NCBI GenBank assembly: GCA_963556145.1
Contig: OY744465.1
Span: 5,518,001-5,582,000 of the forward strand
DNA length: 64,000 nucleotides
Direction: 5' to 3'
Source: Hygrocybe punicea
Taxonomy: Eukaryota > Basidiomycota > Agaricomycetes > Agaricales > Hygrophoraceae
Part shown: positions 22,186 to 62,680 of the stretch, piece after piece
How positions within the stretch are numbered: position 1 is the first letter of the stretch
Layout: each line of letters opens with the position of its first letter
Notes under the pieces: generated by a model
What the model saw: only the letters and a program-made list of their open reading frames with translations
What the model was told of the DNA's origin: nothing
Database searches by the model: none
Translations under genes and position numbers: made by a program

Positions 22186-22814
22186 ACACTGCCAGTCCCC
22201 ACCACAAAGTTGCTGACGCTCGTGCCCAATGTCTTCAGCTTCTGGTGCTAGCGTGCCGACGTCTGGTACTGGCACATCCATATCTGCCTCAGGATCGGCT
22301 GCCTCCAGTAAACCATCCTCGAGTCATGGTGCAGGAGGGCACAAGGCGGCAGCTCTGATTGCAAATGTCAATGACCAGAAACTAAGGATAACTCAACTTG
22401 AGACTGACAACGAAAAGCTGAGAGCCGAGGTGGACCTTGTCAGAAACTGGTGCAAGAAATACAAGAAGAAGTTCGATGAAATGATGGGTATAACGCAGGA
22501 GAAGTTTGAACATATGGATGGAAAATTCAAAAAATTAGCGGCAGATTTTGAAACTGCAAAGGCGACACATTTAACACATACCAGTGGGTCCGAGAGCCCA
22601 AGTGACGATTCAGAAGCAGAAAGAGTCCAGTTATTGATGAAGAAGGAACAAAAGGCAGTGGAGGCAAGCGTAGTGGCATTTTCAGACACAAACCTGTTGG
22701 TTAGTTCAGTCGTCATCCATATTTAATTTCATATTATTCACGCCAATGCAAAGGAACTTACCAGATACGTCTTTCCACTGCGGCTCGGCATCCCTAAACT
22801 TAAGGCTGAAAAGC

Positions 22815-25500
22815 CAGTAGACCCAGTCGTTTTGGTTAACCCGATCGCAGATATAGTTGCAAAAGGTAGGTACACATAGCGCAGTTGCTTGCTGGGGGGG
22901 TAGGTTAACCCAAAAGACAGCACTTGCTGGGGAAATGTGGTGTGGTAGGTTGACCCAGGTACAGTTCTTGCTGGTCAAGGGTGGCTGGTTGGGTCAACCT
23001 GGTGTCAGCTCCGCCATGGAGTCGGTTAACCCAGGGCAGCTATTCCAGGACGGTTGGGTTGACCCAGGCCTAGCTGTTCAAGCCATGTGGGTTGACCTGG
23101 CTGCAGTTATTGTTGCAGCACTGGGTTGACCCCAGTCCAGCTCTTGCTGCAGGCTTGGGTTGACCTAGATGCAGCTTTTGCTGCAGAACTGGGTTGACTA
23201 GGGCCCAGCACTTGCTGGAGGGTGGGGTGACTGGGGTCCAGCGATTGCTGCAGCACTGGGTTGACCTGGCCCCAGCTCTTGCTGCAGCACCGGGTCAACC
23301 AAGGGCCAGTTATTGCTGCAGGATGGGGTTGACCTGGGCCCAGCTATTGTTGCAGCACTGGGTTGACCCGGGTCCAGCACCTGCTGCAGGGCTTGGGTTG
23401 ACCAGGATCAGCTATTGCTGCAGCACCAGGTCAACCTGGTCCCAGGTATTGCTGCAGCATTGGGTCAACCCAGGTCCAGCACCTGCTGCAGGGCTTGGGT
23501 TGACCAGGATCCAGCTATTGCTGCAGCACTTGGTTGACCCTGGCCCAGCACTTGCTGCAGGGTAGGTTGACCAGGGTCCAGCTATTGCTGCAGCACTGGG
23601 TTGACCCAGGTCCAGCACCTGCTGCAGGGCTTGGGTGGACCGGGAGCCAGTGATTGCTGCAGCACTGGGTTGACCTGGCCCCAGCTCTTGCTGCAGCACC
23701 GGGTCAACCCAGGGCCAGTTATTGCTGCAGCATTGGTGGACCCAGGTCCAGCACCTGCTGCAGGGCTTGGGTTGACCAGGATCCAGCTATTGCTGCAGCA
23801 CCAGGTCGACCTGGGCCCAGCTATTGCTGCAACATTGGGTCGACCTGGGCCAGCTATTGCTGCAGGATTGGGTTGACCTGGCCCCAGCTCTTGCTGCAGC
23901 ACCGGGTCGACCTGGGCCCAGCTATTGCCACAGCATTGGGTTGACCTCGGCCTAGCTATTGCTGCAGCACTGGGTTGACCCAGGTCCAGCACTTGCTGCA
24001 GGGCTTGTGTTGACCGGGATCCAGCTATTGCTGCAGCACTTGGTTGACCCTGGCCCAACACTTGCTGCAGGGTAGGTTGACCAGGGTCCAGCTATTGCTG
24101 CAGCACTAGGTTGACCGAGGTCCAGCACTTGCTGCAGGATAGGTTGCCGGGGGCACAGCTCATTCTGCAGCATTGGGTTGATCCTGGACCCACTGATGGG
24201 GGCAGGCTTGGGTTCACTAGGGTCTGGCTAGTGTTCCAGCACTGTGTTGCCATGCCCAGCTTTTGCTGCAGAAAAGGGTTGACCCTGGCCCACCTCTCCC
24301 TGCAGCATTGGGTTGACCAGTGTCCAGCTCTTGCTGCAACATGGGCTCATGTCAGTCGACAGGCTTGCATCACATCCCACTTTGCCTGCATGTATTTCAT
24401 GTTCCAAACATTGACAGAGCTCACACCAGCTCAAGCCAATATTTATTCAGAAACTGCCATATAAAGTAATCAAAAATTTTCAATCTGCACATGACACACA
24501 TGTACCACATAATATAATTTGAATGCACTTATTCAAAGCACAGGGAATAGCAAAATCAAAAAATTATTATTTTGACAATGCACAATATCTTACTTTTACT
24601 ATCAGCTATCAGCCATTACAGGAGCTACTTATTCCCAATGACAATCTATGACAAAATCAGAACTTACCCCACTTGGAATATTGTGCTTTTCTATTTAATA
24701 TTGCTCAATTACCTCACTATTACTTAAAATAGACACATAAATTTAATGATTATTTTATCCAAATACATAATTAAATAGTGAAGGGCAGAAGGCAGGTGAG
24801 AGGAAGATAGGTGGGTGTGGAGTGGGAGGAAGGTGGGAGTGGGAGAAGGGAGTGGGAGTGGGAGAAGAGGGAAGGTGGGAAGGCAGCAGGGAAGGGAGGG
24901 TGACGGAGACGGAGACGGAGACGGAGACGGAGACGGAGACGGAGAGAGGGAGGAGAGTGGACTGTACATACGTTCCCGTTGTCCTCGTCGTCTTCGTCTA
25001 CGTCTCTGCTGTCCTCGTCCCCCTCGTTCCCGTTCCCGTTCCCGTTCCCGTTCCCATCGTCCCCGTCCACGCCGTTCCGGTCCCTGTCATTCCCGTTCCC
25101 GTCATTCCTCTCGTCGTCGTCATCGTTGTCGTTGTCATCATCATCCTCGTCGTCCGATGGATCGTCATCGTCGTCTGCGTCGTCCTGTCGTCCCCTAGCT
25201 GGCCGTCCCCGTCGTTCCCGTCCCCGTTGTCCCCGTTCCCAATGTTGTCCTCGTTGTCGTTGTCCTCGTCTCCGTCCCCGTCGTCGTCCTCGTCGATCCC
25301 TGGATGGTCGTTGACTCTGTCGTCCTGTCGTCTCTTCGCTGGCCGTCTCCGTCCCCATCGTCTTCCCCGGCTGGCCATCTGTGCCCTCGTCGCCTCTGTC
25401 CTCGTCGTTGCCTGCCATCCGCTGTTTCGGCCCTTCAGTTGGGCGTTGACGTGACTTGGCGCGGGCATGCGTGTTGCGGTCAATTCCAGGCGCAGCAGTG
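22815..25500 (+). repeat. Left inverted arm of the 14.3-kb element
   Basis: Reverse complement of about 34,190-37,099. Agreement is base-for-base over long stretches, for example the outer 150 bp, the AT-rich block at 24,440-24,800 and the flanks of the minisatellite. It is weaker in the acidic-repeat part (24,960-25,480), so the inner limit is approximate. Confidence 0.85.
22880..24350 (+). repeat. 34-bp minisatellite, left arm
   Basis: About 40 degenerate copies of a unit like CAGCTATTGCTGCAGCACTG plus GGTTGACCTGGGCC. Each unit has a GCTGCAGC core and a GTTGACC or GTCAACC block. Many frames are open through it on both strands, but they are repeat artefacts. Confidence 0.9.
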
Positions 25501-25538
25501 AGAAAGTCCTTCATAAAAACAATAATATTAGCTAGCAT
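24964..25538 (-). CDS. Acidic-repeat ORF of the large element, left arm
   Basis: The minus-strand frame runs through Arg/Gly-rich and then Asp/Asn/Glu-rich sequence (DDDDDPSDDEDDDDNDND and similar) and stops being acidic at a GTAC/GTATG-like boundary before the CTCCC tract. Upstream, across the LINE insertion, a Q-rich frame (REQQQQQNQVEG) ends at a good donor (AAG, then GTAAGTAG), suggesting a spliced gene. Not recognised; highly repetitive, so coding status is uncertain. Confidence 0.35.
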
Positions 25539-25882
25539 AGTAATAGTAATAAATTTTGAGAAATCTACTTACCTTCTACTTTTTTTTTTCTCCCAGTTTA
25601 TTCTCCTTTACAGTACATTGTATGTAGAGATTCCTGTTATGTATGCTACTTGTCATGTCAAGTGGGTGCATGAAGTCCTGAGGCAACATGTGGGAAGCAG
25701 CAGTGCCGTTCCCGGTAGGAGTGTATCTCCTGTAATAACTGAAACCCGGGTATGGGTAGATTATAAAATATAGAATGGGAAGGTCGGGGCCGTGGGGCCG
25801 GGGGTATGCGGAACAGGGTGTACGATGCGCGGTATGTAGTGCGTGGGATGTGAGTGTGGTGGGATGACGGGGGGCGGTGGGG

Positions 25883-28800
25883 TTAGCTGCTACATTCGTG
25901 TGTGATGTCGGGAATGTGTCCAAACGCTTGCCAGAGTCGCTGTGTGTCGTTGATGTAACGGAAGAGCGGTGGAAGGTGCTTTGGGGTGCATAGCAGTTTC
26001 TTCACATATCCTGCATCACGCCCTACCGTTCGGCGTAGTTTTCGGCGTGCATGGTCGTGTGCTGGGCAAAACAGGAGAAAGTGGGTGACAGTCTCGTGGT
26101 GACGACGACAGCAAGGACAAGTGGGGGTGTCAGCGCGGTTGATCTTATGCAAATGATGATTGAGTCCCACGTGGCCTGTTCTTAGCTGTGTGAGGATTGC
26201 GACGTGTTTCTTGGGCAGAGATCGGGTCATCTTCCGATATGTGGCCGGTGAGAAGCTCGGGTCGATTTCCAGGAGCCGTCTGCATCTCGGGGACTGGGCC
26301 CATTCCCTGTCTGCCCGTTTCTTTAGCCTGTCTAGGAACGACCTCGCCGCTGCTGTCTTGCTGTGTGGTAGAGCGTGCCGTAGTGGGGCGGGAAGTCCTG
26401 TGGCTGCCGTTACGTTCCCTTGTGCTGCTCTCTTCGCATGACCATCTGCTGCCTCATTGCCTCCGATGCCCTCGTGTCCCGGTGCCCATTTTATTGTCAG
26501 ATTCATCCTCTTATGTTGCCTCCTAACCATGTCTAGCCTCTTGTGGAACAGGTCGAATATGTAGTGTGAGGGGCCCGCTTCGAGAGATTTGATCGCCCGT
26601 ATCGCTGCCTGTCCGTCCACGAACATTGAAACACCCCGAACCCCCTTTTCTCCTCTCAGCAACTCCAGTCCCAGTATCGTGCCTATCCCTTCTCCTTCGT
26701 GTACCGTGTGATGCTCCTGTTTACCTAGTTTGTACCTTCTGACTCTCTTTCTCCTCCGCCCTGCTCGCATGAGTACCGCCGCTGCGCCTATCATACCATC
26801 CAAACCTGATCCATCAGTATATATTTTGATATCGTTGTTATCTTGTTCGTGAGCTTCCTTGGCCTCTTCTCGTGACGGCCGTATCTGCGTCGTGACCTCT
26901 GGTTCCCATTTCGTGTCGTATCTGCATGTGGTGATCTTTTCCATGTGTTCCGTTTTGACGTTGTAGTCCCATATGAGGTCATGTATGGGGGTGGGGTGTC
27001 TTTTTACCCGGCGTACCCGTGCGTTCTTGACGGCTTTGCTTAGTGGGTGTGCCGGCGGGAGCGTTGCAAGGCGTAGGGCTGCCCATTGTCGAGTCCTATC
27101 TACTAAAAAGTGAAATGGTAAAAGGTCTGCGTGGACATCTAGGATGTCGGTGGCCGTGGTTGACAATGCGCCGGTGATCATTATGGCTGCCTTGCGTTGT
27201 ATGCCTGTTAGTTTTCGTACCATCGCTGTGCCTCCTCCGCCTCTCCTAGTCCCTCTTCCGTCTTTCTTTGAAGTTGAGCCCATGAAGACCTCCGCAGCGT
27301 AGAGCATTCTTGGTACCGCGATCGATAGGTAAAGCCTTCTCATGATCCTCGCCGGTATCCCCCCTGATGTCTTAGATAGCCTCCTGAACTCCAAAAGCCA
27401 GTCCTGGCCCTTTTTGAGTGCTGCCGCTCCCTGTTCCTTCCATCGAAGTTCGCGGTCAATGTGTATGCCAAGAAACTTGATTGATGTCTTGGGGGGTATG
27501 GGTCTTCCAGCAATGTTAATCGGTAGCCCTGTTATTATGATTCTTTTCCGTGGGTTATCTGGGTCCACCTGTCGTCGTCGCGTCAGATCGATAAGCTGGA
27601 ATTTGTCGACACCAAATTCGCAGTTATGTTCCCTCGCCCACTCTAGAATGCCGCCCGGCCTCTCCATAATGGACTCCAGCTTCGCATGTGCTTCCCCAAA
27701 ATTCCGGCCCACCGCGAGTACGTTCGAGTCGTCAAGGTATAGGATGCCATGTTCCCCATTGCGTGGGATGGGGATGTCGAGCTGGTCTGAGTTGTAGAAT
27801 AGGTAGCACGTCGGCGAGACGGGGCTGCCCTGGTCAAGTCCGTTGTCTACATCAAAGGGTTCTGAGGTGAATTCATCGAAGGTCAGTGTGGTACGACGGG
27901 CTGTGAGCGTTCTCTCTAGCCACCCAGTGATCTCCACTGGTACACTACGTTTTCGCATATTATGCACCATACGGTCAATGGCTGTACTCGGAAAGGCCCC
28001 TTTGACATCAAGGGAGAGTAACGATACCACATTACCTTTCCGCCATTCATCCTTGATTATCTTGCTCATAAATAGAATCGCGTCCATTGTGCTACGGCCA
28101 GCTCTCCCTCCAAAGTGATTGTCTGGCAAGACTCGGGCTCTCTCGCTCATGACTGTGATGTCTTCGTTGACGCATGAGTTCATCAGCCTCGCGTACCCAT
28201 CCGATAGTACTATGGGCCGCCATGCTCCAGGGATGGAGTAGTCTGGCTTGCCCGGCTTCTTCAGTACGATTGTCTCCGTGACCGCCCAATGTCTTGGGTA
28301 CATCTCCAACCCAAAGGTCGCTCTGAAAATGGGGCCGAGAAAGGGGACCAGCATATCGCCGGCGTTCTTGAATACTGCATTTGGTGGGGTGTTGCATTTG
28401 GTGCCCTTGTATGGCTGCATACGTTGGATGGCTCTGTGGATTTGCACGTTGGTGATGGGTCGGAAGTTCCATGCTGGCGGTGGATACTCGGGGTCTTCGG
28501 GGACTGATGAGGTGGCGGGTTTGCTGGGGAAGAAGTTGCTGTGAAAAGCTTTGCTCTTATCTGCGTTAGTCGTCAGTTCGCGTTTCTCATTTGTTGTGGT
28601 GTCTGTAATATATAGTGTGGGCACCTTCGCCCTCCCTCCGTCTGATGCAGGACCTGTCACCAATCGGCTCGCTGTCCATTGACTAGATGTGTCGATACTC
28701 TCTAGCCATTCCAACCAATGTGTTGCCTTAACCGTCTGTATATGAGCTGCATACCTGTGTTTGGCTGTTTTGTACGCCTCGTGGATTGGGTGTCCCTCCA

Positions 28801-30770
28801 CGTGTCGGTACCGGTATGATTTGTTGCCGAGGTTGCGGACCGTTTTCCGTTCTGCTCTCAGGTCTTGATTCCACCATCGTTTGCTGTAGGGGGATAGTTT
28901 AGTCACAGGGACACATTTCGTTACCGCGTTCCAGACCGCTCCCTCCAATTCTCCTAGCGCCCGGTGGAAGGAGTCGTGCGACGTGAGTTCTGCTGGGGCT
29001 GGGAGGGTGTCCAGGTTCTCCTTGAGCGAGTTTCTGAACTCCGTCCAGTCCGCCGCGCGAAAGTTCAGGCGTTGTATTTGAGGTCTAGACGGGGCGGTTA
29101 GATCTAGCATCGTAGTTATCGGGAAGTGGTCGGTCTTGGCTGGCCTATCGCCTGGTCTCGTGTCACATAGCACTACGTTGTAGATGCGGGTTCTTGGTGG
29201 CTTCGGAACTATATAAAGAAATAATATAAAGATCCTAACCAGAAGGTGTCAGCGTAGAAGTGACTGGATAAATCAGTGTCGGGAATAGAAGTAAAAAGAA
29301 GGGAATGTTAGTAAAAGTAAAGCCGCCGCGTAAAACTGGACTAATAACGACGAAGCCGGCGATGAATGGAGTGAAAACGGACAAATAATAAAGAACCCGA
29401 CGATGCCGACGATGTCGGGTACGGCGGGTCGGGTCGGGTCGGGTCGGAAATGATGAACGAATATACGGAAACAACGATAAAGACGACGAAGTGAACTATA
29501 AAAAGCTAAGGATCTACGTGGACGAGCATTTGAAGGGATTAAAAAGTGATTCTGACTAAAGGGAAACGGGGACTAATGGTATCTTTTTTTGTACGATCGT
29601 CGGGGACCGTTTTTATAGTACAGGAAACAGTAATCTACTTTCGGACGTGTCTACTTCGGCCGATGGTAAGCTACAAAGAAAGGTTGGAATGGGGATGTGG
29701 AAAGGGGGGTTGCAAAGCAACGAAGACAGGAAATGGAGGGGAAAACGAATATGCAAGGAAAAGATCTAGAAAGTCCTACATATCTCCGAAAGGACGAGGG
29801 GATGCATAAATAAAGTAAATCCGAAGTCGGGGATTGAGTCCGAAGAGATCCATCTCCTGGAATTGGAACTCCGAGGCGTTTGAGGCTGCCGGATTTAGCC
29901 CAAAAGCGGCCGTCACAAAGCGGCATGTGTCGGGTTACGTCGGTCACGTCGGGTCACGTCACGTCACGTCACGTCGGGTTACGTCGGGTTACGTCGGGTT
30001 CGAATGTAAGTTGAATGGAGGCAGCGGGTTCGTCCGGATTTGTGATATATCGATGATACGGACTCAGAGGGACATCGACCCTCTACAACGTGGTCCATTA
30101 TGGAACTAGAGCAGAAAACGTTGTCAACTCGGGTCATGTTGCCCGTCGACATGGACTGCAGCGTTGGTGTGCCCTCTGGTAATGCCATTCTCATGTCGTA
30201 TCGGGCTAAGAGGTCTAACAAAGGTCCTGCTGCTTCGAGGTTAGCATTGGTGAAGAGGTGGTTGTTACGCTCTTCATCCCAGAGTGGGTGGTGGCGGTTG
30301 AAGTCTCCTGCCAGGACGTAGTGGACTGGGGTCTGGGCTGGAGCTCGAGCTGCTACGCTACCAAGGTAACGTCGCAGTGTGGATATGTTGTTGTTGTTGT
30401 TACAGTCATTGTATACATTGATGATTCTGATGATCCCAAAGTTCCCTTTTATCTCTGCCGCTGTGATGTCAGGTGAGTCAATTAGTATTGGAGACCAGGA
30501 GTCAGATCGGAGCCGTCTGTTGACCAGTATTATTGATCGGGTGGGATGTGTTGTGTGTCTGTCATGGTGTCATGGGGGGTATATCACTGTGTAATAAGTG
30601 TTGGCTCTCGAGAGCCCCTTGAAATCGACGTATGGTTCCTGTATGAGAATAAAGTCATAATTGGTTTTGATTGAGTCTAGCATGTCGTGTTGGGCTACGA
30701 GCGATTTGTTGACGTTCTGTTGCCATAAAGTTAGTGGTTTCGATGAGTCGGGAGTGGGAGCGGAGGTCAT
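25883..30770 (-). pseudogene. LINE ORF2: endonuclease, reverse transcriptase, RNase H
   Basis: Without the 909-bp insertion and one 4-bp target copy the frame is 1,325 codons, stop included. The N-terminal APE-type endonuclease shows TLWQQNVNKS, LIQEPY, AGDFNRHHPLWD and RVDNVFCSS. The RT core has PGAWRPIVL, LSLDVKGAFPS, GLDQGSPVSP and the catalytic YLDD. RNase H has IYTDGSG, the Glu of HEGEGIG, and FVDGQAAI, with a late WAPGHEGIGGNE. A CPCCRRHHETVTHFLLFC finger ends the protein. A single TGA near 30,570 interrupts the endonuclease; a CGA-to-TGA change would explain it (inference). Start ATG overlaps the ORF1 stop as ATGA. Confidence 0.92.
29179..30087 (+). mobile_element. 909-bp LTR-like element inside the LINE
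   Basis: Begins TGTAGATGCGGGTT, ends CGACCCTCTACA, flanked by ACGT (29,175-29,178 and 30,088-30,091). Removing it with one ACGT restores the LINE frame (HVVLCDTRPG). Shares its first 500 bp with the element at 20,498, including the GGGTC pentamer run at 29,420-29,450; it adds an ACGTC/GGGTTACGTC repeat at 29,940-30,000. No coding capacity. Looks like a solo LTR; the autonomous parent is not in the window. Confidence 0.88.
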
Positions 30771-32716
30771 ATATAGAGCTCCTCCGTCGAGGGTGAGTGG
30801 ATAGGATGATGTTGTTGGTGTTGGTGATGATGTTGTTGGGGTGGGTGTGGGGTCATTGTTCGCGGCACAGCGGTCGTTGTGTCTGTGTGGGTAGATTTCC
30901 GTGTCATGATGTGGGTGGGGCCTTCAAGCGGTTCGTCAGCCCACCATCCTCCGGAGGTAGGCGGCGCTGGTCTATCTGTCCAGTAAGTGTGTAATGTCTG
31001 TTGGGCAGTTTGCGTGCTTATCCTCTGGTTTCGTCGATCTGTAGCTGGTGCTAGTGCTGTCCGCCGTTGTTCGGCTCCTGGGTGGCTTCTGTCATGAGGT
31101 CTCTGGTTGTCTCTCCCTCCTCTATTTTGTTCACATCGTTTGTCCGGATGTGGGTATGGGGCGTTGTCTGTGGGTGCGTCCCTTCTCCACGTCGTGTCAA
31201 ACGTGTTCCGCATGGGATCCGTGTCCGTTCTGCCCCATGTGCTAGGGTTGTTGGTGGGGAAGAGTCTGTACTTGGCGTCGGGGTCTCGATCGCGTGTTTG
31301 ATGGAGACGCTCCCTGAAGACTCGACATTGTCGGTCAGCAGCGCCATGTCTGCCCTCTTGGCAATTGGCACATCTCAGTTCCCCGGTGCCGCATAGCTGA
31401 TCTGCTGTGCGGTGGAGCCCCGCACAGCGTGCGCATACATCGTGGATGGATTTACAGTCCCTCGCGATGTGGCCGAATTTCTGGCATTTCATGCATCTCC
31501 GCAGGTCCATCAATGCTTTCTTTGTCCTGCATTGCTTTCCCTCTATGAAAATACCGTATTCTAGCGTGTGGTTCGCAGCTTCTCTCGTGCTGAAGCCCAC
31601 TGACAAGAACGCGAATCTCTGTCCCGCTCGACGAAGGTGGGGTGGCTTGATCCATCGTGCCTCGTATATCGCCATCCTGGGAAGGGAGCTGGCTTGCTCG
31701 ACCTTCTCGATTGCTGTTTGTTCATTCGGGTCAAAGGAGGTAGGGACGTGTTCGGCCACTACTTGGTACGTCCTCGAGCTCCCTGTTGATGTCCCTCCAA
31801 ATTGCGCCATAAATGCGCACATTACTTCCTTGGACTTTAAGTAGTTCGCCGCCTGCGTGGAGTTGAGTGTGTATATTATCGTTCCAGATTGTGTTCTGCG
31901 TGCTCCCACAAAGGCCATGCCATTGGGTTTGTCTGCTGCCTGCATACCCATCAAGTCAAGGGCCAGGGTCGCCTTCTCCACCAACTCTTTCTCGGATAGG
32001 TTCACTAGCGGGTCGTCTTGTGTATCGGGTAGTCTGCGTACTACAATCTGCTTGTCCAATGCGTTTCCTTTCGCTATCGGCGCTGCGTGTTCCGGTGGGA
32101 TCTGCGTGGTGGTCCGTACGATCGATGCGAAGGTGGGTGTGCTGTCAGTGTCAGGTTGTTCCCGATTGGTGGCCGCCTCTGCCATCTTGGTGGCTGCCTC
32201 TACCGTCTCTAATGCGCTTTTCGTGCGGGTTGTAAGTTCGTCTAAGTTGGCTCGGAGATCGTTTAGTGTGTTCATCATTTGATTCGTCACCCCCCGCAGC
32301 GACTCCTCCTGCTTGCCACTGGCTTCCGTTGCTGCTGTGATCGTTTCGGCTGCCGTGGTCAGTTTGGGGTGTACTATCTCGTCCATTTTCCTGTCTATTT
32401 TCGCCACTGCCTCGTTCGCCATCGTGTCCAATCCCATCTCCTCTAGAATGAATGCCGAGGCCCTCAGGATGTTCACCACGGGTCTGGGCAGCTTGGCTAT
32501 GCCCCCTGCCGCTTGTAGTAGGACATACGCTAGTCTCTGGGTAGTCATCTTTTCTCCTTGCGTGATGTATCCGTCCCGTACCAGAGCCGTTCTGGCATCT
32601 TTCACATTGAGCACGTCAGTCAAGACACCCGTGGCATCAGCTAACTCATCTCTGGTTGGTCTAGTCGCGTGGTTTTTGTCTAAGTTACCTCCCGGAGTTC
32701 GGTTTTTCGAGGTCAT
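30767..32716 (-). CDS. LINE ORF1 protein with zinc knuckles
   Basis: Intact 649-codon frame. Predicted nucleic-acid-binding, particle-forming protein of the LINE. The N-terminal half is helical, with Thr/Ala-rich coiled-coil-like sequence. The C-terminal half carries three cysteine knuckles in tandem: CMKCQKFGHIARDC, CARCAGLHRTADQLC and CANCQEGRHGAADRQC. A His/Gln/Pro-rich tail follows. The stop TGA overlaps the ORF2 start (bases 30,767-30,770), suggesting termination-reinitiation as the route to ORF2 translation. Confidence 0.92.
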   Translation of the reverse strand: MTSKNRTPGGNLDKNHATRPTRDELADATGVLTDVLNVKDARTALVRDGYITQGEKMTTQRLAYVLLQAAGGIAKLPRPVVNILRASAFILEEMGLDTMANEAVAKIDRKMDEIVHPKLTTAAETITAATEASGKQEESLRGVTNQMMNTLNDLRANLDELTTRTKSALETVEAATKMAEAATNREQPDTDSTPTFASIVRTTTQIPPEHAAPIAKGNALDKQIVVRRLPDTQDDPLVNLSEKELVEKATLALDLMGMQAADKPNGMAFVGARRTQSGTIIYTLNSTQAANYLKSKEVMCAFMAQFGGTSTGSSRTYQVVAEHVPTSFDPNEQTAIEKVEQASSLPRMAIYEARWIKPPHLRRAGQRFAFLSVGFSTREAANHTLEYGIFIEGKQCRTKKALMDLRRCMKCQKFGHIARDCKSIHDVCARCAGLHRTADQLCGTGELRCANCQEGRHGAADRQCRVFRERLHQTRDRDPDAKYRLFPTNNPSTWGRTDTDPMRNTFDTTWRRDAPTDNAPYPHPDKRCEQNRGGRDNQRPHDRSHPGAEQRRTALAPATDRRNQRISTQTAQQTLHTYWTDRPAPPTSGGWWADEPLEGPTHIMTRKSTHTDTTTAVPRTMTPHPPQQHHHQHQQHHPIHSPSTEELYI

Positions 32717-33654
32717 AGGATTATAATGTATCTTAGGATCCTATCAGGTAGAAGTTAGGCTATCGTAGTGTTCGTTCAATTGTGCAAGAGAGGTGTGGGG
32801 CCGCCGCTCAGGTTTCCTTTGTTGGGGTCCTGGTCGGGGTGCCACGCGGTGTGTTGCCAAGCGATCTCACCTTCTACTTGATTTTGCTGCTGTTGCTGTT
32901 CTCGTGGACGCATCGTGGAGTACGCGACGATTTGAACCCACGCCGGAGGTTGCCGATTGCCCAAACGGGCGCGAGTTGCCTTATATGTAACCAAGATCTT
33001 ACTTTTCTCAGTGTAATTGCATGGAGCACAACAACTGTGTAGCACATTTAAGACCACGTAGGGATAGAATTAGCCTCTAACTACGTCCCCCCCAAATTTT
33101 GTATTTTATTATGGCATACATAGAGAGATATCCATGATTCATTGATACCTCCCTGCCAATTTCGGACCCTTAAAATGCTACTTTACCAATATTGCTCTGA
33201 AAAATATGAGAATAATTGTGAAACTACTATGTAAAGTATCTATTGTATTGATGATCAGTGCCTGGCACTTGGTGGTCCCAGAATCTGTTGTAGCCAAGAA
33301 ATGAAAGGTTCAAAGTAAAGCTGAACTTGAAGTTCGGACTTGGTTGATGGGTCAGCCACAATGCACAATTCTGTGCATTTGCTTGGCTGAAACAAAGGTG
33401 CTGGTCCACCAACAATCAGGCACTTATGTGTACCACAATGAGTACTCATTAAAGTACTCCTGAGATTAATTTCAGATTTTTAAGACAAAGTTAGATCATT
33501 AAGGGTCCAATTCTGGCAGAGGAATGGAATAAATTGTGAATAGCTCTTGATGCAGGGCCGAATAAAATACAAATTTTAGTATGAGGGTAGATATACCATA
33601 TTTACACCTTTTGAGGATTTCACTTGGGGTATGCATGCATTGTTGTGCATGCTA

Positions 33655-33999
33655 AGATAGGCCTCATTCATATACGACCATATGTGACATTTCGTGACAA
33701 ATCATGTGCCCTCAGCCATTTCGAAACAAATGTGACATTTTGATTGAAAATATAGCCTTGTTTGTAGGCATAGATCAAACTTGCTTTTGCATCTCCTCAT
33801 TACACAGGTCAAAAATAAAAATTCTGCTTCCTGGGAGTTGTTTGGGATACAATTATGTGTAGTTCCCAGGAGCCATAAATTTTATTTTTGAAATGTGGAT
33901 GGAGGAGATAGGCATTTGGTGAGTTAAACTGTGTTTTACCTGCCAAGCGTGACAATTTTCATCACATGACATTAGTCGTATTTGAATGAGGCCTATCTT
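33655..33999. mobile_element. Tc1/mariner-like MITE
   Basis: About 345 bp with terminal inverted repeats AGATAGGCCTCATTCATATA (left) and a matching right end …GAGGCCTATCT, one base different within 20. Flanked by TA on both sides (33,653-33,654 and 34,000-34,001), the Tc1/mariner target. An internal inverted pair (AAAAATAAAAATTCTG... / ...AATTTTATTTTT with TCCTGGGA/TCCCAGGA) adds hairpin potential. Non-coding. Confidence 0.75.
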
Positions 34000-34001
34000 A
34001 G

Positions 34002-34477
34002 AAGATTCAAAAGCTTCAGCGACACTTCCATGTTTGGCAACTCGAACCCGTTTGGGAAATCGGCAACTGCCGGTTGGCTTTCCCGCGCGAGTTCAAGCGT
34101 TGTTTTCAACAACGCGTCAACAACGGGAGATGGGTGCAGAGGAGCACCCGAGGTAAATTTCTGATTTTAACTTGTGTTCTTTACTAATTGTTGACCTTTT
34201 CCAGCTACCCCACGCCAAACAGGCGATTCCGAACACCCAACAGCAGAACACAACGCGCCAGCAAACAGAACGGAAGCCGACGAAAACGGCCACCGTGAGG
34301 ATGGCGGAAACGAGGATGCGCCAACGACCAGGACGGACGGCCGAGACAACCACGACAGCAACGACGAGGACAGTCGACGAGGTCACAGACGGCCGGCGAG
34401 GGGACGACGGGGCGGAGAAGGATAGCGACGGGACGACAGGACGACGGAGACGACGACGACCATCCGGGGGACGATGA
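34002..34477 (+). CDS. Putative two-exon acidic-repeat ORF of the large element, right arm
   Basis: A frame reading KSFSDTSMFGNSNPFGKSA ends at GAG plus GTAAATTT (34,153), and the next acceptor TTTTCCAG (to 34,203) opens a frame ATPRQTGDSEHPTAEHNAPA that becomes Asp/Glu/Arg-rich. This parallels the left-arm frame. No family recognised. A MITE lies immediately upstream, so the true start is unclear. Confidence 0.35.
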
Positions 34478-37099
34478 CAACCATCCAGGTGACGACGAGA
34501 ACGACGACGGGGACGGAGACGCGGATGACGACGACAACGAGGACGATGACGACGAGGACGGGAACGACGGGAACGGGTACGACAGCGACGGGGACGACGG
34601 GGACGAGGACGGCGGAGACGCGGACGAGGACGACGGGACGAGGACGGCGGAGATGCAGACGAAGACGACGAGGACGACGGAAACACGAGAGGTATGTACA
34701 TCCCACCCCTGCTCCCTCTCCCTCTCCCTATCCCAGTCCTCCTCCATCTCCATCACCCTCACCCTCTCCCTGCTGCCCTTCCCGGCTGCCTCCACCTTCC
34801 CTCTTCTCCCACTCCCACCCCCTTCTCCCACACCCATCCCCTTCTCCCACTCCCACCTTTCTCTACTCCCACTCCCACCTTCTTCCCACTCCCACTCCCA
34901 CTCCCACCTTCTTCTGACTCCACACCCACCTATCTTCCTCTCACCTGCCTTCTGCCCTTCACTATTTAATTATGTATTTGGATAAAATAATCATTAAATT
35001 TATGTGTCTATTTTAAGTAATAGTGAGGTAATTGAGCAATATTAAATAGAAAAGCACAATATTCCAAGTGGGGTAAGTTCTGATTTTGTCATAGATTGTC
35101 ATTGGGAATAAGTAGCTCCTGTAATGGCTGATAGCTGATAGTAAAAGTAAGATATTGTGCATTGTCAAAATAATAATTTTTTAATTTTGCTATTCCTGTG
35201 CTTTGAATAAGTGCATTCAAATTATATTATGTGGTACATGTGTGTCATGTGCAGATTGAAAATTTTTGATTACTTTATATGGCAGTTTCTGAATAAATAT
35301 TGGCTTGAGCTGGTGTGAGCTCTGTCAATGTTTGGAACATGAAATACATGCAGGCAAAGTGGGATGTGATGCAAGCCTGTCGACCGACATGAGCCCATGT
35401 TGCAGCAAGAGCTGGACACTGGTCAACCCAATGCTGCAGGGAGAGGTGGGCCAGGGTCAACCCTTTTCTGCAGCAAAAGCTGGGCATGGCAACACAGTGC
35501 TGGAACACTAGCCAGACCCTAGTGAACCCAAGCCTGCCCCATCAGTGGGTCCAGGATCAACCCAATGCTGCAGAACGAGCTGTGCCCCCGGCAACCTATC
35601 CTGCAGCAAGTGCTGGACCTGGGTCAACCCATTGCTGCAGCAATAGCTGGATCCCGGTCAACACAAGCCCTGCAGCAAGTGCTGGACCTGGGTCAACCCA
35701 GTGCTGCAGCAATAGCTGGATCCCGGTCAACACAAGCCCTGCAGCAAGTGTTGGGCCAGGGTCAACCAAGTGCTGCAGCAATAGCTGGATCCCGGTCAAC
35801 ACAAGCCCTGCAGCAAGTGCTGGACCTGGGTCAACCCAGTGCTGCAGCAATAGCTGGATCCCGGTCAACACAAGCCCTGCAGCAAGTGCTGGACCTGGGT
35901 CAACCCAGTGCTGCAGCAATAGCTAGGCCGAGGTCAACCCAATGCTGTGGCAATAGCTGGGCCCAGGTCGACCTGGTGCTGCAGCAAGAGCTGGGGCCAG
36001 GTCAACCCAATCCTGCAGCAATAGCTGGATCCCGGTCAACCCAAGCCCTGCAGCAGGTGCTGGACCTGGGTTGACCCAATGCTGCAACAAGAGCTGGACC
36101 TGGGTTGACCCAATGCTGCAACAAGAGCTGGACCTGGGTTGACCCAATGCTGCAGCAAGAGCTGGGCCCAGGTCGACCCAGTGCTGCGGCAAGAGCTGGG
36201 ACCAGGTCAACCCAATGCTGCAGCAATAGCTGGCCCTGGGTTGACCCGGTTCTGCAGCCAGAGCTGGGGCCAGGTCAACCCAATGCTGCAGCAAGAGCTG
36301 GGACCAGGTCGACCCAATGCTGCAGCAATATCTGGCCCAGGTCAACCCAATGCGGCAGCAATAGCTGGGCCCAGGTTGACCTGGTGGTGCAGCAACAGCT
36401 GGAACCTGGTAAACCCAAGCCCTGCAGCAGGTGCTGGACCTGGGTTGACCCAATGCTGCAGCAATACCTGGGACCAGGTTGACCTGGTGCTGCAGCAATA
36501 GCTGATCCTGGTCAACCCAAGCCCTGCAGCAGGTGCTGGACCCGGGTCAACCCAGTGCTGCAACAATAGCTGGGCCCAGGTCAACCCCATCCTGCAGCAA
36601 TAACTGGCCCTTGGTTGACCCGGTGCTGCAGCAAGAGCTGGGGCCAGGTCAACCCAGTGCTGCAGCAATCGCTGGACCCCAGTCACCCCACCCTCCAGCA
36701 AGTGCTGGGCCCTAGTCAACCCAGTTCTGCAGCAAAAGCTGCATCTAGGTCAACCCAAGCCTGCAGCAAGAGCTGGACTGGGGTCAACCCAGTGCTGCAA
36801 CAATAACTGCAGCCAGGTCAACCCACATGGCTTGAACAGCTAGGCCTGGGTCAACCCAACCGTCCTGGAATAGCTGCCCTGGGTTAACCAACTCCATGGC
36901 AGAGCTGACACCAGGTTGACCCAACCAGCCACCCTTGACCAGCAAGAACTGTACCTGGGTCAACCTACCACACCACATTTCCCCAGCAAGTGCTGTCTTT
37001 TGGGTTAACCTACCCCCCCCAGCAAGCAACTGCGCTATGTGTACCTACCTTTTGCAACTATATCTGCGATCGGGTTAACCAAAACGACTGGGTCTACTG
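34190..37099 (-). repeat. Right inverted arm of the 14.3-kb element
   Basis: Mirror of the left arm. It has about 100-200 bp more of minisatellite than the left arm, consistent with unit gain or loss. The inner limit is set where the spliced-looking acidic exon begins after an acceptor near 34,203. Confidence 0.85.
35395..37010 (-). repeat. 34-bp minisatellite, right arm
   Basis: Inverted counterpart of the array at 22,880-24,350. Local order of variant units is similar at the outer end and shuffled toward the centre (about 35,620-36,000 has an amplified higher-order unit that repeats ATAGCTGGATCCCGGTCAAC). Confidence 0.9.
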
Positions 37100-37438
37100 G
37101 AAAAGCTTCCCTGGTACCCCACCTGTCCATCTGATTCACCCGATTGGCCACGAGAAAGCGGAACGAATGAGAAGCTCCTGCGCTTCCGGTGGGACAAGCC
37201 TTGGGACGATGAGGACAATTTCTACTCTATCCGAATGATCATATCGCACATGAAACGACACGGGGCACAGCTTGTGCCTAGCGCTTCCACGGCCCTCAAT
37301 AACATCAGCGAAGAGGATTTGGAGAGCCGGGTCATTGCCAAGTTCACCGCATTGCAGAAGGACCTGCGAATGGAAGGATTCCTCAATGCGCAAAACAGGA
37401 AAATCATTCGACCGGTTACAGTGCTGGTGCTTGAACGT

Positions 37439-59204: not shown

Positions 59205-60085
59205 GAGGGAGAGGAGAGAGCAGGGAGGGAGCAGGGAGGGAACGGGGAGGGAGCAGGGAGGGAGCAGGGAGGGAGCAGGGAGGGAACGGGGAGGGAGCAG
59301 GGAGGGAACGGGGAGGGAGCAGGGAGGGAACGGGGAGGGAGCAGGGAGGGAACGGGGAGGGAGCAGGGAGGGAACGGGGAGGGAGCAGGGAGGGAACGGG
59401 GAGGGAGCAGGGAGGGAACGGGGAGGGAGCAGGGAGGGAACGGGGAGGGAGCAGGGAGGGAACGGGGAGGGAGCAGGGAGGGAACGGGGAGGGAGCAGGG
59501 AGGGAACGGGGAGGGAGCAGGGAGGGAACGGGGAGGGAGCAGGGAGGGAACGGGGAGGGAGCAGGGAGGGAACGGGGAGGGAGCAGGGAGGGAACGGGGA
59601 GGGAGCAGGGAGGGAACGGGGAGGGAGCAGGGAGGGAACGGGGAGGGAGCAGGGAGGGAACGGGGAGGGAGCAGGGAGGGAACGGGGAGGGAGCAGGGAG
59701 GGAACGGGGAGGGAGCAGGGAGGGAACGGGGAGGGAGCAGGGAGGGAACGGGGAGGGAGCAGGGAGGGAACGGGGAGGGAGCAGGGAGGGAACGGGGAGG
59801 GAGCAGGGAGGGAACGGGGAGGGAGCAGGGAGGGAACGGGGAGGGAGCAGGGAGGGAACGGGGAGGGAGCAGGGAGGGAACGGGGAGGGAGCAGGGAGGG
59901 AACGGGGAGGGAGCAGGGAGGGAACGGGGAGGGAGCAGGGAGGGAACGGGGAGGGAGCAGGGAGGGAACGGGGAGGGAGCAGGGAGGGAACGGGGAGGGA
60001 GCAGGGAGGGAGCAGGGAGGGAGCAGGGAGGGAACGGGGAGGGAGCAGGGAGGGAACGGGGAGGGAGCAGGAGGGAGCAGGAGGG
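59205..60085 (+). repeat. 22-bp minisatellite, about 35-40 copies
   Basis: Unit GGGAGGGAACGGGGAGGG plus AGCA, almost invariant from 59,270 to 60,000, more variable at both ends. 22 is not a multiple of 3, so all frames share the same 22-residue repeat (Gly/Arg/Glu plus, Pro/Ser/Leu minus), giving long open frames that are artefacts. Strong G/C strand asymmetry. Confidence 0.95.
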
Positions 60086-62680
60086 AGCGGGGACAGAGAG
60101 AATGAGGAGAGGGAGGAAACCAGGAGGGAGCGGGGACAGAGAGAACGAGGAGATGGAGGAAACCGGCAGCCTGAGGGAGCGGGAGGGAGCAGGGACAGAG
60201 CGGGGGAAGGAGGGAGAGGGAGAGAGCATGGAGAGAGCGTGTGGGGAGGAGAGGGAGAGAGAGGGAACAGGGAGGAGAGGGAGAGCGCGAGTGGAGGAGC
60301 AGGGAGAGAGGGAATGGGGGAGGGAGAGCGCGCATGGAGGTGGAGGAGAGAGGGAATGGAGAGGGAAGAGAGAGAGCAGAGCAGGGAGAGAAATACAGCG
60401 GGGGAGAGAGGGATTGGGGGACGGAGAGCGGAGAGGGAGGCAACGGGAAGCAGAGAGGGAGCGAGGGATCGGGGAGCGGGAGGGAGAGAGAGAGCAGGGA
60501 GAAGAGGGAGAGGGAGAGAACTGACCTCGTCATCTGTCGTCATCGTCCCCCTCCCCCTCCCCCTCGTCCTCGTCCTCATCGTTGTCTTCTTCGTCGTTGT
60601 CCTCGGCGTCTCCCTCATTAATATTGTCCTCGTCCTTGGCCTTGGCCTCTTCATCTGTGGTATCCTCACCATATTCCCTCTTCTACCCTCCCTGAACCTT
60701 TCTGGCCTCTCTTTTCGGTCATTAGTTTTGGCAGAATGATTGGAAGGTGAAAGGGACTTACAGGACGCGTGGGTGAAAGAGAGAGGCGCGACAAGAAGAA
60801 AACGCGACGCGTTTGTTGGTTGATTGATTGTTGATTGACATTGATCACCTGACCACCTGCAACATGGAAGGTATAGGTGGGGAGAGGTGCGAGGTTTTGG
60901 GAGAGGTTCGAGAGAGGTTCGAGAGAGGTCCGGGAGAGGTGCGGAGAGGTGTCGGAGATCGACAACAATTGATCAACCAATGAGAAATCGTTTAACGGTG
61001 CACTGAATGTAAAAATACACATATTCGACAACCACTGCGTCAAAAATCAAGAAAAAAATACCAAGCACTTCAACGGTCACTGCCGCTCATGCATGTGCTC
61101 ATGCTCCATCCTGGATATTACTTGGAGCCGCGACTTTGGTACGTTAGTGCATCCGATGACCCCTGCTAACCAAACCCGTGACTAAACATCAAGTATTCCT
61201 ATTAGTACTACTACTACGTATACTAGTACATGTTTGCTCGGTGAGTTTCTCCACTCTCGTGTTCTGCCTCTCACATCTTTGCGGCTCATTGCACCCATTT
61301 CAGAGCCGTTTGCACCCTCATCCGACCACAACTTCACTTGCTTTTTGGTGAGAACACAACCAGTGGAAGCAAGGACGACGAGGCGATGAAGACGACGAGG
61401 ACAAAGAGGATGACACCGATGGGCACGGTGACAGAGACGACAAGGAGGGAAAGGATGACGACAAGAACGCAGACGACAATGAGGAGGGGAACAGCAGGAA
61501 CGATGGGAACACAACGGTATCCACCCACTCTTCCTCTACCCGCTCACTCTCCCCGTCCCCACTCTCGCCTCGGTCCCACACACTCTCCCTACTCCCCCGC
61601 CCTCCTCCCACTCTCTCTTTTCCCTCCCCGCACCTCTCCCGCACTCTCCCTCTCTCCATCCCCTCTCCTCCCCATTTCCACTCCCCACTGTCTCGTTCTC
61701 TCTCCATTCCCTCTCCCCGCTCTCACTTCCTCCCTGCCATTTCTTCTTCCCTCAGCCCCCTCTCTCTCCTCACCCCACACTGTCTCCTCCCCACACTGTC
61801 CTCCCTCCACTCTGGCTCCCTCTCCGCTCTCCAATCAACAAACCGCGACAATGACGACACCGACAACGACAACGGGGAGCATGGAAAGCCGGGTCGGAGG
61901 TGTGGTGCGCCCACACTCCGGCCCAGGTATGTTTTTTTCTATCTACTTTCGTCATCCACTTACCCCCTCCCCCTCATAGGTTACCTCGTGAACCCAAGCG
62001 CACGTTGAATGACGTGCGTCTTGTGCCTTCGAGGTGACGGCGATGAGGGTAACAAAGAGGGGCCAGCACCAGTACCAGCACCAGCACCAGCACCAATGCC
62101 AGCACCGGCACCACCCCCGAGTACCTCGCGAGGGCCGAGCCCACGTCAATTGACGTCTATGGCCAACCTCGCGAGGTTAGGAAGGCAAAACATAGCACTG
62201 GCACTAGCACCAGCACCAACAGTGCCAACGCCAGCACCGGCACTGGCACCACCCCCAAGTACCTTGCGAGGGCCGGGCCCCTATCAATTGACGTCGGCGG
62301 CCAACCTCGCAAGGTTGGGAAGGCAAAACATACCTCATGAGGGCGAGGCCCATGTCAATTGACGTGGCCGGCTACCCTCACGAGGTAACAGAATGCCTGA
62401 TCGGTGGTGAAACCACGGGTGTGCCCCCACTCACGGTTTGGCCATGAAACCATTCCCAAAATGCGTCAGGTTGCCCAAGACCCGTTCCGGGTATGGTTTA
62501 CGAGGGTTCGGGTATGGTGTCATGCCACTCTAACCCTTACCCGACCCATGATGCACCCTGGTAGCCGCTCCACGGGCCCCAGTCCCACCCTCTCTCCCTC
62601 CACTCTCTCTCCCCCCTCCCTGTTCCCTCCCTCTCTCCCCGATCTCTCCTGCCCCATTCTCACCCTCCCCTAGTGTCTAA
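60086..62680. other. Low-complexity DNA with acidic-repeat and CAATTGAC modules
   Basis: GA-rich 60,086-60,530; CCCCTC run 60,545-60,575. A frame at about 61,360-61,510 reads DDEEDKEDDTDGHGDRDDKE-like and ends at a GTATCC boundary before a long CTCCC-rich tract (61,520-61,840). Another short acidic piece follows (61,850-61,925, ending GGCCCAGGTATG), homologous to a reversed piece at 21,540-21,620. Two copies of a 140-155-bp unit with CAGCACCA and GTCAATTGACGT lie at 62,059-62,335. No gene recognised. Confidence 0.5.

Follow-up and report, generated by a model that had tools for sequence, protein, structure and literature searches.

The interrupted exon and its insertion

The window analysed in the current study is a 64,000-nucleotide stretch of the Hygrocybe punicea genome (contig OY744465.1, positions 5,518,001 to 5,582,000, forward strand), and coordinates given without a contig name refer to it. 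An insertion with long inverted arms spans nt 22815–37099 and is flanked on both sides by GAAAAGC (nt 22808–22814 and 37100–37106), the exact 7-bp duplication claimed in a preliminary description of this DNA. The terminal inverted repeats claimed there are also present and exact, reading CAGTAGACCC... from nt 22815 and ...GGGTCTACTG finishing at nt 37099. The arms had been described as inverted, built of minisatellite, and almost 3 kb long. The first two properties were borne out, but the inverted alignment runs from the tips only to about nt 25184 on the left and about nt 34491 on the right (81–88% identity in two main alignments), an arm length of 2.4–2.6 kb. A 34-bp minisatellite makes up part of both arms, with 37 units in the left and 42 in the right. 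The sequence of the copy contains no Ns, and an Rfam scan of the window gave no matches. The features of the locus are:

22808–22814, plus strand: target-site duplication GAAAAGC, left copy, 7 bp
22815–22934, plus strand: left terminal region, near-invariant between copies; candidate transposase recognition region
22815–25184, plus strand: left inverted arm, in inverted alignment to the right arm at 81–88% identity
23088–24345, plus strand: left-arm 34-bp minisatellite, about 37 units
25571–25581, plus strand: 11-bp duplication ACCTTCTACTT, left of the nested LINE
25582–32868, minus strand: nested LINE (reverse transcriptase, RNase H, endonuclease and one further long ORF)
29176–30087, minus strand: insertion within the LINE, probably a solo LTR (96% over 915 bp)
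32869–32879, plus strand: 11-bp duplication ACCTTCTACTT, right of the nested LINE
32869–33654, plus strand: middle region of the foldback, 99.6% identical to locus L023
33655–33998, unstranded: nested 344-bp MITE-like element, recognised by comparison with sister copies; its ends are short and inverted, its duplication is TA
34491–37099, minus strand: right inverted arm, in inverted alignment to the left arm
35397–36825, minus strand: right-arm 34-bp minisatellite, about 42 units
37100–37106, plus strand: target-site duplication GAAAAGC, right copy, 7 bp

Elsewhere in the window, at nt 59205–60093, lies a 22-bp minisatellite of 40.6 units (97% matches).

It had been proposed that the element interrupts an exon whose halves rejoin in frame (KAEK-LPWYP), and this is upheld by paralogous loci in the same genome, which match the joined translation (...KAEK|LPWYP...) with no interruption (22 matches, some of them partial). 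The best full-length, stop-free paralog (C6:937241–937552) covers residues 1–104 at 73%, and another stop-free locus (C40:112731–113039) covers the same residues at 55%. The insertion thus entered coding-like sequence of a multigene family. A homolog search with the joined exon gave two matches, and the one that was aligned spans the right half only, so that it is the genomic paralogs, not the homologs, that test the join.

Nested insertions and the size of the element

The bounds of the 14.3-kb element described previously are correct, but its size is inflated by later arrivals. The larger of these is a LINE of 7.3 kb, in which Pfam domains for reverse transcriptase (RVT_1, 6.4e-18), RNase H (RNase_H, 2.5e-7) and endonuclease (Exo_endo_phos_2, 5.4e-14) were recognised. 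It is bounded by its own 11-bp duplication, has a run of T at the left junction that marks the poly-A side, and is missing from the sister copies compared. The LINE is itself split by the probable solo LTR, which has matches in a 29.9-kb copy (L069) and a 17.9-kb copy of the family (both described below). Subtracting both inserts (LINE and 344-bp element), each with one copy of its duplication, leaves a foldback element proper of about 6.64 kb.

A transposase encoded by the window copy itself was considered and rejected, as its longest ORFs belong to the LINE and the three ORFs tested gave no match to a DNA transposase. What remains has the form of a foldback, i.e. long inverted arms of tandem repeats around a middle without a transposase gene, in agreement with the earlier view that this is a member of a non-autonomous, foldback-like family.

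The CAGTAG family in the genome

That such a family exists was evident from a search of the genome (92.2 Mb, 42 contigs) with a 28-bp end pattern, allowing up to three mismatches, which returned 179 forward and 172 reverse matches (351 in all), while a reversed-pattern control returned none. The paired copies examined end in CAGTAG...CTACTG, termini for which the search pattern itself selects. From 136 places among the matches listed, 51 pairs of neighbouring ends could be formed, with a median spacing of 7271 bp; the pairing rests on position, the duplication having been checked in a minority of pairs. Among these matches the spacing is 6–8 kb in 32 of the 51 pairs and reaches 49.3 kb at most. 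An exact 7-bp duplication flanks 26 of 28 scored copies, is absent from the other two (L027 and C7:917438), and in none of the 26 does the match extend past 7 bp. No strong base preference is seen among the 26 duplications. Two further loci, L038 and L039, lie outside the 28; each has a left end, and the 10 kb examined from it contain no right end.

The tip sequences fall into three subfamilies. A separate search with the terminal region of the window copy (nt 22815–22934) gave identities of 99–100% in 40 scored matches out of 371 candidates. The near-identical tips, together with the many exact duplications, point to a recent spread, and as far as sequence comparison can tell the family was probably active recently.

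Since long palindromes are at issue, the structure might be thought an artefact of assembly. Two loci (L029 and L031) each contain a gap of 100 Ns and a duplicated interior (99.75–100% over 800 bp), indicating that the assembler had trouble with these palindromes. For the family as a whole such an origin is made unlikely by the different exact duplications at 26 loci, to which may be added the three tip subfamilies and, in the window copy, a sequence free of Ns whose nested insertions carry duplications of their own. We regard an artefact as extremely improbable.

Several copies are unusual in structure. At C3:2236302 and 2236394 the left tip is doubled at a distance of 92 bp, and it is the outer tip that bears the 7-bp duplication (GATCAGA). 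Two pairs of CAGTAG ends are widely spaced, 49.3 kb apart at C7:1528547–1577817 and 38.8 kb apart at C6:4656742–4695553. As the two ends of each pair share an exact 7-bp duplication (CCTAAAA and TCCATAG, respectively), each pair probably bounds a single insertion. In the 17.9-kb copy (L034+L035, C6:1669299–1687190) a set of ORFs occurs twice, at a distance of about 4.9 kb, and may represent nested LTR retrotransposons in tandem.

KDZ transposase genes associated with CAGTAG ends

The preliminary description could name no common eukaryotic DNA transposon superfamily that combined such a duplication with such arms, and suggested that a transposase gene sharing the ends be sought. A candidate was found in the paired element at C35:5028002–5038637 (L072), a 10.6-kb copy which holds a KDZ gene between CAGTAG ends and is flanked by the 7-bp duplication AGCTTGG. 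In a 1000-base read of this copy the KDZ domain (PF18758) was detected in two ORFs (2.6e-35 and 1.6e-11), and a CxC2 cluster lies upstream of it at C35:5031876–5032202. A 200-base read of its arm, beginning 700 bp from the left end, proved to be the family minisatellite, 80.7–82.6% identical to each of 18 aligned copies. The element is known from 1280 bases altogether (40+40+1000+200), which cover the KDZ gene in part.

KDZ matches are abundant in the genome (at least 186, with 150 of 429 candidates scored), and six of the genes, that of the 10.6-kb copy included, form a close group at 92% identity or more (150 of 214 candidates scored). A CxC2 cluster adjoins each of the other five as well. 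Four of the six have an exact CAGTAG end on their 3' side, from which they lie 1964, 2592, 2759 and 5249 bp inwards; of these four, only the gene of the 10.6-kb copy lies between two ends among the matches listed. The remaining two (C3:1422786 and C7:5420536) have no exact end nearby among the matches listed. As a control, we took the 102 KDZ genes of lower similarity that share a contig with a listed end. Just one of them is placed in this way, inward of an end by no more than 8 kb and in the same orientation. That lone match is the KDZ gene of an element nested in a 21-kb CAGTAG copy. A rough estimate of the probability of four out of six by chance is 1.5e-7, for a distance that was picked post hoc. 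One close KDZ gene thus lies inside a copy, and three more lie beside such ends.

The 21-kb copy (L059+L064, C3:2944800–2964100) introduces a second KDZ family. Its KDZ and TET/JBP genes were at first candidates for native genes of the CAGTAG family but were rejected, for they lie inside a nested element of about 16.9 kb that has arms of its own, composed of 44-bp and 18-bp repeats, and recurrent ends (at least 41 matches, with 40 of 80 candidates scored; several are near KDZ and TET genes). Within it were identified a Tet_JBP oxygenase (4.6e-16), a KDZ match (2.5e-11, above the Pfam cut-off) and a CxC2 match below the cut-off. The ends of this family, CACATCATG...CATGGGCTG, are likewise of the CA..TG type. 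Duplications of 7 bp flank two other copies, AGTATGT (computed) and TCCACTC (by eye), while the element in the 21-kb copy has an imperfect one (TCCAGGG vs TCTGGGG, 5/7, by eye). The KDZ domains of the two families are only 28% identical, so that minisatellite arms occur in two distant KDZ families of one genome. Another large copy, of 29.9 kb (L069, C1:8208030–8237883; duplication TGATATT, 7 bp), harbours a TET/JBP gene of diverged sequence together with a piece of a DDE_3 transposase, either of which may be native or nested; a homolog search with one of its ORFs gave a single, uninformative match.

These large copies bear on whether the KDZ genes near CAGTAG ends belong to the family at all. 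The family could instead be a foldback of another superfamily that generates 7-bp duplications, such as hAT7, families of which create them in rust fungi (PMC12730594), and the KDZ genes would then be passengers or parts of nested elements. A KDZ+TET element is indeed nested in the 21-kb copy, the 29.9-kb copy has its DDE_3 transposase piece alongside the diverged TET gene, and for the 10.6-kb copy, read over 1280 bases only, nesting of a KDZ element is conceivable. However, the close KDZ genes near ends are oriented alike, and three of the four lie 2.0–2.8 kb from the end, which is unlike random nesting, and the same placement is seen for only one of the 102 other KDZ genes. The 10.6-kb copy, moreover, has the family's own arm and 7-bp duplication, and the KDZ family known to nest is a different one, with different ends and 28% identity in the KDZ domain. 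We therefore consider this explanation unlikely. Still less probable is a foldback of Mutator type whose duplication has an unusual length: described foldbacks are mostly attributed to Mutator, where tandem-repeat arms are known (PMC4079207), but here 26 of 28 copies have a duplication of exactly 7 bp and none has one of 8–10 bp, and the gene found is KDZ.

The superfamily of the window element can, after all, probably be named, as KDZ, given a KDZ gene within a copy that shares the ends and the minisatellite arm and likewise has a 7-bp duplication. A KDZ-type transposase in the larger copy would explain the 7-base duplication. It is highly likely that the window element is a non-autonomous foldback belonging to a KDZ-group, Kyakuja-like family of cut-and-paste DNA transposons.

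Conservation of tips and arms

The first 100 bp of the tips are 99–100% identical in four comparisons. Beyond them, the arms of subfamily B drop to 68–96% per 100 bp relative to A and C, a difference that points to constraint at the tips. This constraint is read from subfamily B, because A and C have closely similar arms (90–100% per 100 bp; L026 vs L033). Within single copies the two arms are at least 0.998 identical in 10 of 18 cases (alignments with free end gaps). The within-copy value exceeds the best match to another copy of the same subfamily in 10 of 18 (barely so in L032) and is lower in the other 8. The window copy runs counter to arm homogenisation, its arms matching each other at 0.955 and those of another copy at 0.996. 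In part of the copies the values hint that one arm served as the template for the other.

A mechanism can be proposed on this basis. The KDZ transposase may act in trans on the conserved terminal ~100–120 bp, and would cut at the tips, stagger the target by 7 bp and so move the foldbacks. Like the arm repeats of Galileo, which contain extra transposase-binding sites (PMC4079207), the arm minisatellite may be an array of additional sites of this kind, and in some copies one arm would derive from copying of the other. A broader proposal is that KDZ transposons in this genome built minisatellite arms more than once, that the repeats are transposase-binding arrays, and that the two arms within a copy serve as templates for rewriting one another (e.g. 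by hairpin-templated repair at each transposition), making foldbacks a regular stage in the life of KDZ elements; we hold this to be doubtful, but offer it as a speculation.

Comparison with known systems

The KDZ, CxC2 and TET/JBP genes of this genome fit a mushroom-type fungus, given their published distribution (PMC12730594). Kyakuja elements of Agaricomycetes create 7-bp duplications and have 5'-CA..TG-3' termini (Kojima 2025, PMC12730594), and the CAGTAG family resembles them in its duplication (26 of 28), its CA..TG termini and its KDZ transposase. It differs from the two Laccaria families, Kyakuja-1_LB and Kyakuja-2_LB, which are reported to have no TIRs (PMC12730594), in having minisatellite arms of 2.4–2.6 kb and some 350 ends. 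Because of these arms we assign it to the KDZ group and go no further than the label Kyakuja-like. The same domain family, KDZ, provides the transposase of Zisupton and Dileera, but these make 8-bp duplications (PMC12730594) whereas the longest flanking match here is 7 bp in 26 of 28. With hAT7 of rust fungi the family has in common a 7-bp duplication (PMC12730594), the difference being the hAT transposase of the former.

In overall form the closest parallels are Galileo (P superfamily) and Tetris of Drosophila, which also have long inverted arms, internal tandem repeats and non-autonomous copies (PMC4079207). Unlike both, the CAGTAG family combines a 7-bp duplication with a KDZ transposase; Tetris makes duplications of 8–10 bp and has no known transposase (PMC4079207). 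TIRs as such are not new to the KDZ group, since a study of Marasmius oreades refers to TIR motifs in its KDZ and Plavaka elements (PMC8290104). No description of KDZ foldbacks with minisatellite arms was found in the literature searched, and it is the kilobase minisatellite arms together with the foldback form that make up the part without a description found for the KDZ group.

Significance

Foldback elements are often orphans, with no transposase known for them. For the family described here a likely transposase was located elsewhere in the genome, within a copy that shares its ends and arms. The literature examined yielded no link between the KDZ group and foldbacks, and the present case suggests that the foldback form can arise within this group. 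With about 350 ends and three tip subfamilies, the family provides a tractable system in which to study how minisatellite arms grow and how they remain similar to each other.
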